A DNA stretch of 64,000 bases from Tamlana sp. I1. Its GTDB lineage: Bacteria > Bacteroidota > Bacteroidia > Flavobacteriales > Flavobacteriaceae. The stretch's first letter is position 1; each line of letters begins with the position of its first letter. Made by a program: the position numbers and the translations under genes. The stretch covers positions 1 to 64,000 of the forward strand of contig NZ_JACLAF010000015.1 in the NCBI RefSeq assembly GCF_015355625.1. The letters are read 5' to 3'. Positions 24,678 through 56,459 of the stretch are shown here, piece by piece. Under the pieces are notes generated by a model. It ran no database searches and had not been told where the DNA came from. It saw only the letters and a list, made by a program, of their open reading frames with translations.

Positions 24678-24770
24678 GTTGGGCACTGCGTTAGGGATTG
24701 CAGCGGCATCCTTTTTTGAGGTAGGAAAAAAAGATATAGCGGAAAGCCCGACCCTTAGGGGAACGCCCAA
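24678..24770 (+). ncRNA. structured intergenic element, possibly Flavo-1-like
   Basis: About 90 bases, markedly more GC-rich than their surroundings. GGTTGGGC (24678) pairs with GCCCGACC (24746-24753) with one G-U/A exception, and an inner ATCCTTTTTT/AAAAAAGAT stem lies between. Elements with this GGGCACTGCGTTAGGG...GCGGAAAGCCCGACCC pattern recur between genes in Flavobacteriaceae; I believe they correspond to, or resemble, the published Flavo-1 RNA motif, but this is from memory. It could equally be a mobile repeat. The transcribed strand is uncertain. Confidence 0.45.
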
Positions 24771-53369: not shown

Positions 53370-53414
53370 GACATAGCATGTCGCAAGTTTTTGTTTTAAT
53401 CCGCCGTAAATTTG
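53370..53414 (+). promoter_or_regulatory. operator-promoter of small-RNA unit A
   Basis: The palindrome GACAT-AGC-ATGTC (53370-53382) is followed 24 bases later by the -7 element TAAATTTG (53407-53414). The palindrome centre lies about 41-42 bases before the predicted start. Confidence 0.65.
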
Positions 53415-53419
53415 TAGAG

Positions 53420-53509
53420 TAATTGAAACAGATTACAGTTTTTCATATAGTTTGGTTTAAGGTTAGTAAAGCTGCTGATGGGTTTCAGAACAAATCAGTA
53501 GCTTTTTTT
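53420..53509 (+). ncRNA. candidate small RNA, unit A
   Basis: About 90 bases from the predicted start to a terminator hairpin AAAGCTGCTGAT/ATCAGTAGCTTT plus T run (53468-53509). The 5' part GTAGAGTAATTGAAACAG and the central CATATAGTTTGGTTTAAG are conserved in all four units. There is no useful ORF. The promoter, body and terminator are copied as a unit. No family recognised. Confidence 0.6.
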
Positions 53510-53558
53510 ACAAACAATAGGAAATTTAAAGTTGCCCAAGTAGATCATTATATATAGT

Positions 53559-53602
53559 AAAACCCTGTAGATATTCGTTATTTACAGGGTTTTCGTTTTT
53601 TT
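53559..53602 (+). terminator. second terminator of unit A
   Basis: AAAACCCTGTA pairs with TACAGGGTTTT (11 pairs) and is followed by CG and T7. It is conserved in all four units ~50 bases after the first hairpin. Confidence 0.8.
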
Positions 53603-53797
53603 ACAAAGATTAAATGAACTGTTTTTAGTTGCTTTAAAAAGAATGTAAAATTCAAATTTAAGGGTGTTCGAGCGCAGCCGAGAACCTATCATCGTGATTT
53701 AAATTCTATTTCTCAATTCCACTCAAATCCTACGGAACAACTAAATCATCAAATAATACAATTCCAATTATGTTTTGAAAATATAGGAGTCACCACA

Positions 53798-53843
53798 CGA
53801 CATAGCATGTCGCAATATTTTCTAGTAATCAGTCGTAAATTTG
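53798..53843 (+). promoter_or_regulatory. operator-promoter of small-RNA unit B
   Basis: CGACAT-AGC-ATGTCG (53798-53812) and -7 element TAAATTTG (53836-53843) at the same 23-base spacing as the other units, although the bases between differ. Confidence 0.65.
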
Positions 53844-53848
53844 TAGAG

Positions 53849-53938
53849 TAATTGATACAGATTACAGTTTTTCATATAGTTTGGTTTAAGGTTAGTAAAG
53901 CTGCTGATGGGTTTCAGAACAAATCAGTAGCTTTTTTT
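53849..53938 (+). ncRNA. candidate small RNA, unit B
   Basis: Nearly identical to unit A from the -7 element to the terminator (one change in the first 20 transcribed bases). Hairpin at 53897-53932 with T7. Same strand as unit A, 429 bases further on. Confidence 0.6.
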
Positions 53939-53987
53939 ACAAACAATAGGAAATTTAAAGTAGCCCAAGTAGATCATTATATATAGT

Positions 53988-54029
53988 AAAACCCTGTAGA
54001 TATTCGTTATTTACAGGGTTTTCGTTTTT
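53988..54029 (+). terminator. second terminator of unit B
   Basis: AAAACCCTGTA/TACAGGGTTTT followed by CGTTTTTG. It also faces the 3' end of the convergent gene at 54100. Confidence 0.8.
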
Positions 54030-54099
54030 GTAACAAACAGTAATACGGGAACAACTCGATCTTATTGAATTTATAATTTAAGACTGAACACAAAAAGAT

Positions 54100-55317
54100 T
54101 TACGCTGTTGATTTCTTCGATATATTTTTCTGAAAAACATAAAAAATACTCAAAAACAGCATGATACTAGCAATTAACAAGCCTTCATTATAATAATCGG
54201 GAATACTAAATTTTCCAGACCAAACGTCAATGCCTTTATAAATGATGAGTCCTTCGGTAAGTATAAAGCCTAGGAGGTAAAACTTAAATGCGTTTGAAGT
54301 AATGTTGAACAGTTTTGATACACTCAAAATTAAGAATAAACTCATGCTTATTAGTCCTAAAAAAATCCAATGTAAATAAGCAATGGTTAACTCGATAATT
54401 GTCGCGCTTAGATTTGAAAAATAGGGGATGGCTCCTAAAAATTGTATAATTAGTTTTAAGCCTAAAACACACATAACAGTTTTAAACATAAAAATTTCAG
54501 TAGAAGTAAAAGCAGCTTGTAGATTAGCCCACTTCATTTTTATATAACCAAGCGCATACATAAAGCAAACCAGTTGTAATAACCCACCTGCGCCACTTAA
54601 TACATATACAAAACCGATTGGTTTAGTCCATAATGCCGATAAAAACAAGGTAAGCAACACACTTATATTTAGTGCTATAAAAAAGCGTTTGTTTTGCTTC
54701 CGCGGAAGCGTAGCACCTTTGTTTTCAAATATATAAATGAAGATTCCGATTAAGGCCAATAGCATCCAGCCGTTATACTGAAAGTGCAAATAAAAGTAAA
54801 TGGCCAGACGGTACCAAATAGATCCAGGTCCTAAGATAGTCATAATGCCCCCTAATGCCCACGGACCAATACTCGATAAAACAAGATAATAAAGCGATGC
54901 TTTTATGTAAGGATAACATGCTGATTTTTTAAGTGTTGAAGATGAATTTTTCACAAAAAACCATGTGAACCAATAAGAAGCAAATAGAAAAAGTGTTGAA
55001 AATATAATTGAAAACAAGGCATAACCTTGAAACGGGAACGTGAGCATCATACCAACCAAAGTACATTGTGTAAAAATGAAAATACGTTGGTGCTTTTGGT
55101 TTAAATCCTCATTTTTTGAAATGAAAAAATGATAAAGCAAAGTGGTTAAACAAAGGTATACCCAACCTAGTAAAGCAATATGCGAATGCCCATGAACGAT
55201 GTGTCTATAATTAACATCAAAATCAAAAACGTGAAGTGCTCTTAAAAAAACACCAAACACTGCTGCTATTAAAAAATAGATATAGGCAATGGTTGTTTGG
55301 GATTTAATTGAAATCAT
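54100..55317 (-). CDS. 12-TM membrane protein with conserved-type histidines, possibly haem-copper-oxidase- or NnrS-like
   Basis: A 405-residue protein with about twelve hydrophobic helices and almost no soluble part. Histidines sit where a haem protein would use them: HIVHGHSHIALLGW (helix 2), FYLHFQYNGWMLL (helix 6) and AYLHWIFLG (helix 10). Subunit I of haem-copper oxidases and NO reductases also has twelve helices with histidines in helices 2, 6 and 10, but the helix-7 copper histidine pair is missing. NnrS proteins, linked to NO stress, are another possibility. Function unproven. Its -7 element lies so close to the ATG that the mRNA may be leaderless. Duplicated small-RNA blocks flank it on both sides. 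Confidence 0.6.
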   Translation of the reverse strand: MISIKSQTTIAYIYFLIAAVFGVFLRALHVFDFDVNYRHIVHGHSHIALLGWVYLCLTTLLYHFFISKNEDLNQKHQRIFIFTQCTLVGMMLTFPFQGYALFSIIFSTLFLFASYWFTWFFVKNSSSTLKKSACYPYIKASLYYLVLSSIGPWALGGIMTILGPGSIWYRLAIYFYLHFQYNGWMLLALIGIFIYIFENKGATLPRKQNKRFFIALNISVLLTLFLSALWTKPIGFVYVLSGAGGLLQLVCFMYALGYIKMKWANLQAAFTSTEIFMFKTVMCVLGLKLIIQFLGAIPYFSNLSATIIELTIAYLHWIFLGLISMSLFLILSVSKLFNITSNAFKFYLLGFILTEGLIIYKGIDVWSGKFSIPDYYNEGLLIASIMLFLSIFYVFQKNISKKSTA

Positions 55318-55321
55318 AATA

Positions 55322-55329
55322 CAAAAATA
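55322..55329 (-). promoter_or_regulatory. -7 element directly before the 54100-55317 gene
   Basis: On the minus strand TATTTTTG ends five bases before the ATG at 55317. Transcription would begin at or next to the start codon, giving a leaderless mRNA. Confidence 0.5.
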
Positions 55330-55559
55330 TAGTATTGCTTTCTAAAAATGATTATTTCAGTATCCCTGTAGTTGATTTTATACCATTAATTTGTGATAAA
55401 AAACATAAGCGATTTATTTTCAGTGTATTATGTAGCTTTGTAGTTTGAAATTATAATTTAGAACCTGCTTTTTTATAACGCTCCTTTTAACTTTCTAAGC
55501 TTGTAATCTTCTTTACTTTTAAACGCTATTAACACAGCTCTTAATCTTCTCTTTATAAA

Positions 55560-55620
55560 GGAGAAACTCATACGCAACAGTTTCCCTCCTAATAAGGAGG
55601 GATTAAGGGAGGTGTTCTAC
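55560..55620. repeat. CCCTCCT/AGGAGGG hairpin element
   Basis: CCCTCCT-AATA-AGGAGGG followed by GGGAGG, with TTTATAAAGGAG just before. It is similar in style to the CCTCC/GGAGG stems at 47930-47970. A dispersed intergenic element; no coding capacity. Confidence 0.5.
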
Positions 55621-55793
55621 AATACTTGTGTTTTTTAATGCTTTACAGAATGCAAACAAGTTTAAAGCATTCTATAATAGGAGCGCAGCCGAGAACAAAT
55701 GCTTTTGATTTAAGTATAACTTTTCGACTTAGTTAGAAGTAGCAGCTAACAATTTAGTTCCAATTATGTTTTGAAAATACATGAGTCACCACA

Positions 55794-55839
55794 CGACATA
55801 GCATGTCGCAAGTTTTTGTTTTAATCAGCCGTAAATTTG
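55794..55839 (+). promoter_or_regulatory. operator-promoter of small-RNA unit C
   Basis: CGACAT-AGC-ATGTCG (55794-55808), 23 bases, TAAATTTG (55832-55839). The spacer matches unit A rather than B or D. Confidence 0.65.
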
Positions 55840-55844
55840 TAGAG

Positions 55845-55935
55845 TAATTGAAACAGATTACAGTTTTTCATATAGTTTGGTTTAATGTTAATAAAACTGC
55901 TGATGGGTTTCAGTACGAATCAGTAGCTTTTTTTT
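55845..55935 (+). ncRNA. candidate small RNA, unit C
   Basis: Same layout as units A and B. The stem has one change (AAAACTGCTGAT against ATCAGTAGCTTT) that introduces a mismatch, and the loop has two changes. T8 follows. The conserved 5' segment is unchanged. Confidence 0.58.
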
Positions 55936-55984
55936 ACAAACAATAGGAAATTTAAAGTCGCCCAAGTAGATCATTATATATAGT

Positions 55985-56029
55985 AAAACCCTGTAGATAT
56001 TCATTATTTACAGGGTTTTCGGTTTTTTT
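55985..56029 (+). terminator. second terminator of unit C
   Basis: AAAACCCTGTA/TACAGGGTTTT stem intact, followed by CGG and T7. Confidence 0.8.
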
Positions 56030-56224
56030 CAGAGATTAAAAGAACTGTTTTTAGTTACTTTAAAAAAGAAAGTATATTTCAAATATAAGAGTGTTCGAGC
56101 GCAGACGAGAACCTATCATCGTGATTTAAATTCTATTTCTCAATTCCTCTGAAATCCTACGGAACAATTGAATCATCAAATAATACAATTCCAATTATGT
56201 TTTGAAAATATAGGAGTCACCACA

Positions 56225-56270
56225 CGACATAGCATGTCGCAATATTTTCTAGTAATCAGTCGTAAATTTG
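56225..56270 (+). promoter_or_regulatory. operator-promoter of small-RNA unit D
   Basis: CGACAT-AGC-ATGTCG (56225-56239), 23 bases, TAAATTTG (56263-56270). Confidence 0.65.
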
Positions 56271-56275
56271 TAGAG

Positions 56276-56365
56276 TAATTATAACAGATTACAGTTTTTC
56301 ATATAGTTTGGTTTAAGGTTAATAAAGCTGCTGATGGGTTTCAGTACGTATCGGTAGCTCTTTTT
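56276..56365 (+). ncRNA. candidate small RNA, unit D
   Basis: The most diverged copy. The terminator 3' arm reads ATCGGTAGCT, where the A-to-G change turns a U-A pair into U-G, so the stem survives. The T run is interrupted (CTTTTT). The 5' and central conserved segments remain. Confidence 0.55.
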
Positions 56366-56417
56366 AAACAAACAATTGAAAATTTAATGCGCCCCCAACT
56401 AAATCATTATATATAGT

Positions 56418-56459
56418 AAAACCCTGTAGATATTTAATATTTACAGGGTTTTCGGTTTT
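56418..56459 (+). terminator. second terminator of unit D
   Basis: AAAACCCTGTA/TACAGGGTTTT intact with a different loop (GATATTTAATATT), followed by CGGTTTT. It also lies just past the stop of the convergent DUF349 gene and can serve it. Confidence 0.75.

Follow-up and report, generated by a model that had tools for sequence, protein, structure and literature searches.

We analysed a 64-kb window of the 4.04-Mb genome of Tamlana sp. I1 (positions 1 to 64,000 of contig NZ_JACLAF010000015.1), in which four copies of a small unit, A to D, lie on the plus strand. Each unit opens with the palindrome GACATAGCATGTC, identical to the letter in all four, followed by a 24-base spacer, the -7 element TAAATTTG and a body of about 92 bases with a stable hairpin and a T run (module 1). 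Past the body come a linker of about 25 bases, the conserved stretch CCCAAGTAGATCATTATATATAG, whose 5' end is altered in unit D, and a second hairpin, AAAACCCTGTA...TACAGGGTTTT, with a T run, again present in all four (module 2). A first-pass annotation, made from the letters alone, had described such a four-copy unit with its -7 elements, its palindrome, its hairpin-bearing body and its second hairpin, and direct reading of the sequence together with alignment bore out the positions and every one of these parts (Table 1). In comparison to unit B (53780-54035), the other three are 96, 93 and 90% identical over 234-257 bases. The units are arranged in pairs, the A-B block with a period of 429 bases recurring as C-D with a period of 431 bases, and the two pairs flank a gene (54100-55317) encoding a 405-residue protein that matches no Pfam or NCBIfam family at E<=0.01. 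No fifth unit was found in the whole genome, where the sole extra match was a weak one, on the reverse strand, to a terminator.

The first hairpin folds in all four units, with minimum free energies (MFE) of -23.9, -22.9, -17.4 and -22.0 kcal/mol for B, A, C and D, and fold z-scores of -3.9, -3.1, -1.7 and -3.4 in the same order, i.e. below -3 for three of the four bodies; unit C has lost the outer pairs of the stem. In unit D, one U-A pair of the hairpin has become U-G (ATCAG to ATCGG), a change that keeps the pairing, as had been proposed. A coding function of the units was considered and rejected, the plus-strand frames reaching 44 residues (from a TTG start) in A and B and 32 in C, with none of at least 12 residues in D. 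The Rfam families mir-454 and Plastid-ccsA-ndhD, which hit the second hairpin, were judged chance matches between an AT-rich hairpin and eukaryotic or plastid families.

Units of the window's kind (type-1 units) occur in all six Tamlana genomes, 24 in total (23 obtained by filter and one, L158:5041, added by hand), four of them in the window genome and 20 in the others (two to five each), and all stand behind TAnnTTTG. A DNA search of 60 relatives gave matches in seven, namely the host genome, five congeners and G011, the last with the terminator only; partial matches to the second terminator alone were seen at four places, and the longer between-genome matches span the unit from operator to second terminator (query about 8-10 to 239-244). 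Among named genomes, the pattern of operator, promoter and RNA was found in 12 stretches, all from Tamlana (Flavobacteriaceae), the named strains being Tamlana sp. 2_MG-2023, T. agarivorans JW-26 and I2M19, and T. haliotis, and the same core lies under the same operator and promoter in two further genera (G142 and G253). The 20 non-window units share 25 pairs in three helices that are 94.6% paired, with double changes at 10 of the 25; none of 500 shuffles (uncorrected for kinship) reached either the pairing or the double-change value, and slid versions fell to 30-53% paired. A covariance model built from these 20 units (R1), searched against 424 kb, ranked the four window units highest (E 9.5e-7 to 4.7e-5; scores in Table 1), followed by a unit of another genus in L148 (E 0.0017) and by units of a third kind, described below, in Tamlana L166 (E 0.005 and 0.012), under which units were mixed with non-units. 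Comparison thus places the four units in what we regard as a genuine, conserved, multicopy family resembling small RNAs (sRNAs). The earlier proposal of a multicopy regulatory RNA family holds as far as the family is concerned, whereas the word 'regulatory' rests on analogy.

Two terminators had been proposed for the family, which is correct for all four window units and does not extend to the family as a whole, for 7 of the 24 related units showed no second module. Its 17 occurrences always lie behind a module 1, in stretches chosen for holding an operator; its hairpin shows double changes at 5 of 14 pairs, and the conserved stretch ahead of the hairpin is nearly invariant and unpaired. The pair of terminator-like hairpins in the window units also argues against the units being 5' leaders or attenuators of adjacent genes, which we consider improbable. 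One module 1 with a weak U run (L080) does lie 171 bases before a same-strand secreted-protein gene, and the unit at L078:5197 lies 289 bases before one such gene, but a same-strand gene starts within 200 bases for just 1 of the 24 type-1 units. In their stretches, 23 of these units are followed by a gene of at least 80 residues, which for 16 is on the opposite strand, and the genes after the window units (405 and 658 residues) are likewise on the opposite strand.

The palindrome had been read as an operator belonging to the units alone. This did not stand: comparison reveals it as the operator of a regulon that includes protein genes and has a candidate regulator. In the six Tamlana genomes, with gaps of 18-30 bases allowed, the distance between the consensus GACAYNNNRTGTC and TAnnTTTG was exactly 24 in 64 of 65 matches, in comparison to 3 matches for a reversed-pattern control; with the gap fixed at 24, matches were found in 19 of 249 Flavobacteriaceae genomes. 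In the 95 sites that we extracted (the 64 Tamlana sites with fixed spacing and 31 of 43 from outside Tamlana, the other 12 being left out), promoter spacing is kept while the letters of the spacer drift. The downstream half of the operator abuts the expected -33 position, and no TTTG-like -33 consensus was seen behind it, columns 16-19 holding 0.25-0.67 bits each and being A/T-rich. The simplest reading of the sites is that the regulator bound there would be a class-II-like activator. The preserved spacing also speaks against a dispersed repeat or mobile element with no RNA function, to which the many copies at several genomic places and the local duplication might otherwise point. We regard this as very improbable, for the stems covary, the longer cross-genome matches are bounded by the operator and the second terminator, and the unit had no match in 50,697 phage or 72,556 plasmid records, which lends no support to its having come from a phage or plasmid.

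The likely activator at this operator is a helix-turn-helix (HTH) protein of about 291 residues, whose gene in the host genome is at G000:C26, L073:8887-9762. It was matched in 16 of the 249 genomes, all 16 of them among the 19 with the operator-promoter (Fisher p 1.5e-22, uncorrected for kinship); counted by genus, the protein is found in 14 and the operator-promoter in 17 of 235, and G084, G091 and G269 have one site apiece and no protein. Of 19 genomes with the HTH gene (six from Tamlana, thirteen from elsewhere), 17 have their nearest site 1-93 bases from it; in the remaining two the distance is 378 and 533 bases. One gene per genome was measured, so that the additional genes of G014 and G030 and the G143 fragment are not counted. 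The shortest distance, 1 base in G004, is measured from the longest frame and becomes 46 with the start as in the protein alignment. The HTH_3-type match is weak in the host copy (E 0.0064) and reaches 2.6e-6 in the best of 19 members; among solved structures the matches were weak, with an HTH protein on top (E 0.01), those to HTH families in PHROGs were weak as well, and NCBIfam gave no family. In a phylum-wide sample of 395 genomes, the full-length protein was found in the host genome only, other matches covering little beyond the HTH, but this sample was drawn evenly, so that the genera with the protein are represented by few genomes. None of 82 pattern matches was confirmed as a viral relative of the HTH protein.

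Alternatively, the HTH protein might act at the palindrome as a repressor, or a different regulator might bind there, the units being otherwise ordinary sRNA genes. Small HTH_3/XRE-like proteins are often repressors, and the HTH gene is divergent from the nearby site in most loci, a layout that autoregulated repressors and activators have in common. G253 retains the site though its protein is without the HTH part, which would also suit this alternative. We nevertheless consider it unlikely, as the constant spacing in the Tamlana matches is not demanded by repression, as there is no -33 consensus of the TTTG type behind the operator, and as a transcription start 4-6 bases past TTTG would put the operator centre 42-44 bases upstream, a usual position for an activator. 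In G253, the regulator gene (L148:2133-2753) has lost its first ~100 residues, including the HTH, and starts with an unrelated stretch of ~20 residues; the operator and a related RNA unit still lie 93 bases from it.

What lies behind the 95 sites is varied. TTTTTCAT or a close variant starts 20-27 bases past TTTG in 32 of them, and 10 have a second kind of RNA, marked by AATAGCRA, which is found close to the regulator gene, once per genome, in ten genomes from four genera. A third kind of unit occurs in tandem pairs under the same operator. These pairs adjoin a gene for a 169-residue protein, which we take to resemble lipoprotein signal peptidase. Among protein genes, sites lie directly before a gene of ~312-326 residues in all six Tamlana genomes (the three copies that were scanned, L075, L171 and L172, match GH25 lysozyme, the rest being assigned by likeness), before a gene that by eye encodes a small putative lipoprotein (four genomes, three genera), before a secreted-protein gene whose sorting-domain match is under the cut-off, and before small proteins with no Pfam family above the cut-off. 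This set of genes suggests that the operator governs a cell-envelope regulon.

Table 1. Features of the four window units, of further units under the same operator and of one other RNA in the window
Feature	Position	Strand	Basis or remark
Unit A, operator GACATAGCATGTC	53370-53382	+	identical in 4 copies; fixed-spacing consensus GACAYNNNRTGTC
Unit A, -7 element TAAATTTG	53407-53414	+	sequence read, operator-promoter pattern
Unit A, module 1 (predicted sRNA)	53419-53509	+	fold; R1 49.1 bits, E 9.5e-7; RF04319 27.7 bits, under cut-off
Unit A, possible 5' stem GTAAT/ATTAC	53419-53436	+	stem not formed in MFE of A
Unit A, TTTTTCAT	53439-53446	+	
Unit A, module 1 terminator hairpin, then U run	53468-53505	+	fold
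Unit A, module 2: CCCAAGTAGATCATTATATATAG, then terminator hairpin 53559-53593	53535-53593	+	alignment, pair counts
Unit B, operator	53799-53811	+	identical copies, operator-promoter pattern
Unit B, -7 element	53836-53843	+	sequence read, operator-promoter pattern
Unit B, module 1 (predicted sRNA); terminator hairpin 53897-53934 and U run	53848-53938	+	fold; R1 47.5 bits
Unit B, module 2; terminator hairpin 53988-54022	53964-54022	+	alignment, pair counts
Unit C, operator	55795-55807	+	identical copies, operator-promoter pattern
Unit C, -7 element	55832-55839	+	sequence read, operator-promoter pattern
Unit C, module 1 (predicted sRNA); stem 55897-55926, weakest of four	55844-55935	+	fold; R1 40.8 bits
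Unit C, module 2; terminator hairpin 55985-56019	55961-56019	+	alignment, pair counts
Unit D, operator	56226-56238	+	identical copies, operator-promoter pattern
Unit D, -7 element	56263-56270	+	sequence read, operator-promoter pattern
Unit D, module 1 (predicted sRNA); terminator stem 56326-56359 with U-A to U-G	56275-56365	+	fold; R1 47.8 bits
Unit D, 5' stem	within 56275-56365	+	fold; formed in MFE of module 1
Unit D, module 2; terminator hairpin 56418-56452	56394-56452	+	alignment, pair counts
AATAGCRA units	L073:8176 (-), L077:7792, L079:14439, L154:10914, L155:4179 (-), L156:4636 (-), L142:3439 (-), L143:2869 (-), L144:3475 (-), L146:3162		terminator-like hairpin after
Third kind of unit, tandem pairs	L081:3702 and 3893; L164:2869 and 3061; L166:3193 and 3374		same operator
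Flavo-1 RNA (RF01705)	24685-24757		51 bits, above cut-off

The first-pass annotation had not recognised the units as any described RNA. No Rfam family reaches its cut-off on them, but a described relative exists in FopS (RF04319), which matches all four below threshold and, in a permissive Rfam scan, was the sole bacterial match to the units, over the full length of the model. According to the passages of PMC11697453 on which we draw, FopS in B. thetaiotaomicron comprises 14 paralogous sRNAs of about 65-70 nucleotides, in which the 5' seed is unpaired and a terminator is present. They repress SusC-like transporters at the start codon, are countered by the RRM protein RbpB and are induced by bile salts; its authors propose that some unknown regulator of transcription may contribute to the induction, and state conservation for Bacteroidaceae plus one phage. 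In an ungapped comparison with FopS across the 64 kb, the four units take the top four places (26-27 of 35; next 23), and none of 5000 letter shuffles of one unit reached 26 (best 25). Like FopS, they are multicopy, stand behind a canonical Bacteroidota promoter of the TAnnTTTG type and carry the seed, GUUUUUCAU then UUUAAGGUUA (UUUAAUGUUA in unit C), near the 5' end, with a Rho-independent terminator directly after the seed region. When a core profile made without the window copies was run on 19 viral loci, from which 19 FopS copies had been taken for comparison, FopS sites ranked 1-5 and made up 11 of the top 15, but with an E of 4.8 at best. The likeness of the window copies to FopS is firm and common descent is likely. 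Formal membership of the FopS family fails, and the units differ from FopS in their length (~92 nucleotides in comparison to 65-70), in a longer 5' end with a possible stem-loop, in the second module present in 17 of 24 units, in a different promoter box and in a host in which no RRM protein was found.

The Bacteroides FopS promoters have a box of their own. In 10 of the 19 viral loci (L223, L225, L227-L230, L235 and L238-L240), TAAACCATGTTATAA (TAATCAATGTTATAA in two copies) precedes GTTTTTCAT by exactly 75 bases; a -7 element is present in 12 loci, of which these are 10, the L224 stretch being too short and one locus being without the box. It is a candidate site for the unknown regulator of FopS.

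We believe that the units are probably, though by no means assuredly, paralogous genes for FopS-like anti-start-codon sRNAs under a newly found activator. In the proposed mechanism, the Bacteroidota-type promoter of each unit would need an activator at GACAYNNNRTGTC, just upstream of the would-be -33 element, and this activator would most likely be the ~291-residue HTH protein encoded elsewhere in the genome. The main product would be an RNA of ~92 nucleotides with a possible 5' stem-loop, a mostly single-stranded UUUUUCAU...GUUUGGUUUAAGGUUA and a terminator; read-through past the first hairpin would give a form of ~185 nucleotides that ends at the second terminator and includes the second conserved stretch. 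By analogy to Bacteroides FopS, UUUUUCAU would pair with the AUGAAAAA start region of target mRNAs and block translation. Genes often start with AUGAAAAA, to which UUUUUCAU is complementary, and because the FopS seed includes the same stretch as UUUUUCAU, we infer that the RNAs of the units would cover start codons. In the consensus fold of the 24 units, UUUUUCAU is unpaired, as is the seed region in the MFE structure of unit D, part of this region being weakly paired in A to C. Of 16 inspected RF04319 hits outside the units in Tamlana, eight lie antisense over gene starts beginning ATGAA (L195-L198, L200, L202, L208 and L211); they fit a start-codon seed, and no common function emerged among them.

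Several observations weigh against this interpretation. Regarding targets, the complement of the core 20-mer (<=3 mismatches) was not found in the genome outside the units, the bipartite target pattern gave 4 other matches at 3 places in comparison to 2 control matches, and duplex energies at 53 gene starts of the window equalled those at shuffled starts. Regarding structure, the 5' stem GTAAT/ATTAC is invariant among the 20 non-window units, so that covariation gives it no support, and single-sequence folding forms it in D only, the MFE structures of A to C weakly pairing part of the seed region. Regarding FopS, RF04319 scores 25.3-27.7 bits (E 0.25-0.74) on the four units, short of the cut-off of 56 bits; it gave no match above cut-off in the six Tamlana genomes and none at E<=5 in seven loci with related flavobacterial units, and R1 in turn gave no match at E<=5 to Bacteroides FopS in the 13 of 19 viral loci searched. 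Regarding the regulator, the 16 protein matches include G253 with no HTH part, an incomplete copy in G232 and the G143 fragment of 41 residues. Finally, neither Hfq nor, at E<=0.001, RRM_1 (PF00076, the fold of the FopS partner RbpB; control Bacteroides ihuae positive) was found in any of the six Tamlana genomes, so any chaperone would be of another kind.

Instead of repressing mRNAs, the units could serve as sponges or decoys, with a protein or another RNA of the regulon titrated by, for example, module 2 or the start-codon complement. The high copy number is compatible with titration, the unpaired stretch of module 2 is highly conserved, and TATGAAAA, which lies between the hairpins in several Tamlana units, is complementary to TTTTCATA of the same RNA. 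However, TATGAAAA is missing from some units, those of the window included, and the 7 of 24 units that showed no module 2 have also retained a core of the TTTTTCAT type. We therefore rate a sponge function as rather unlikely.

Repression of mRNAs by several sRNAs under one regulator has parallels elsewhere. Qrr, OmrA/B and MicA/RybB are sRNA sets controlled by an activator or a sigma factor, some of which repress outer-membrane proteins near the start codon; they use other promoters and depend on Hfq. Compared by description only, the Tamlana units are like them in that several sRNAs would be co-activated by one regulator and unlike them in that no Hfq was found in Tamlana. Among flavobacteria, Rfp18 of Flavobacterium psychrophilum is an sRNA conserved in its genus with a measured regulatory effect (PMC9723704). 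The units share with it conservation within a genus; again compared by description only, Rfp18 differs in pairing via its third stem-loop, and neither an operator nor a family of copies is mentioned in the passages of PMC9723704 used here. Open-licence PubMed Central papers yielded no account of the RNA family found here or of its operator. The nearest known kind is FopS; what is new is the distribution, the longer 5' end, the second module, the regulator candidate and the regulon.

We tentatively put forward a wider picture, which may well prove wrong, in which an undescribed HTH activator with an uncharacterised C-terminal domain, present in part of the Flavobacteriaceae, would command a regulon of surface and wall genes as well as several families of FopS-like sRNAs that block start codons, operating without recognisable Hfq or RRM proteins, as a Bacteroidota counterpart of the sigma-E/MicA-RybB system. 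With the Tamlana units, FopS-like RNAs are seen in a second order of the phylum, accompanied by a candidate for their regulator, a precise operator and a set of genes that lie behind this operator too, whereas neither RRM nor Hfq proteins were detected, so that both the regulation of such RNAs and their action without known RNA chaperones become directly testable in a marine genus.

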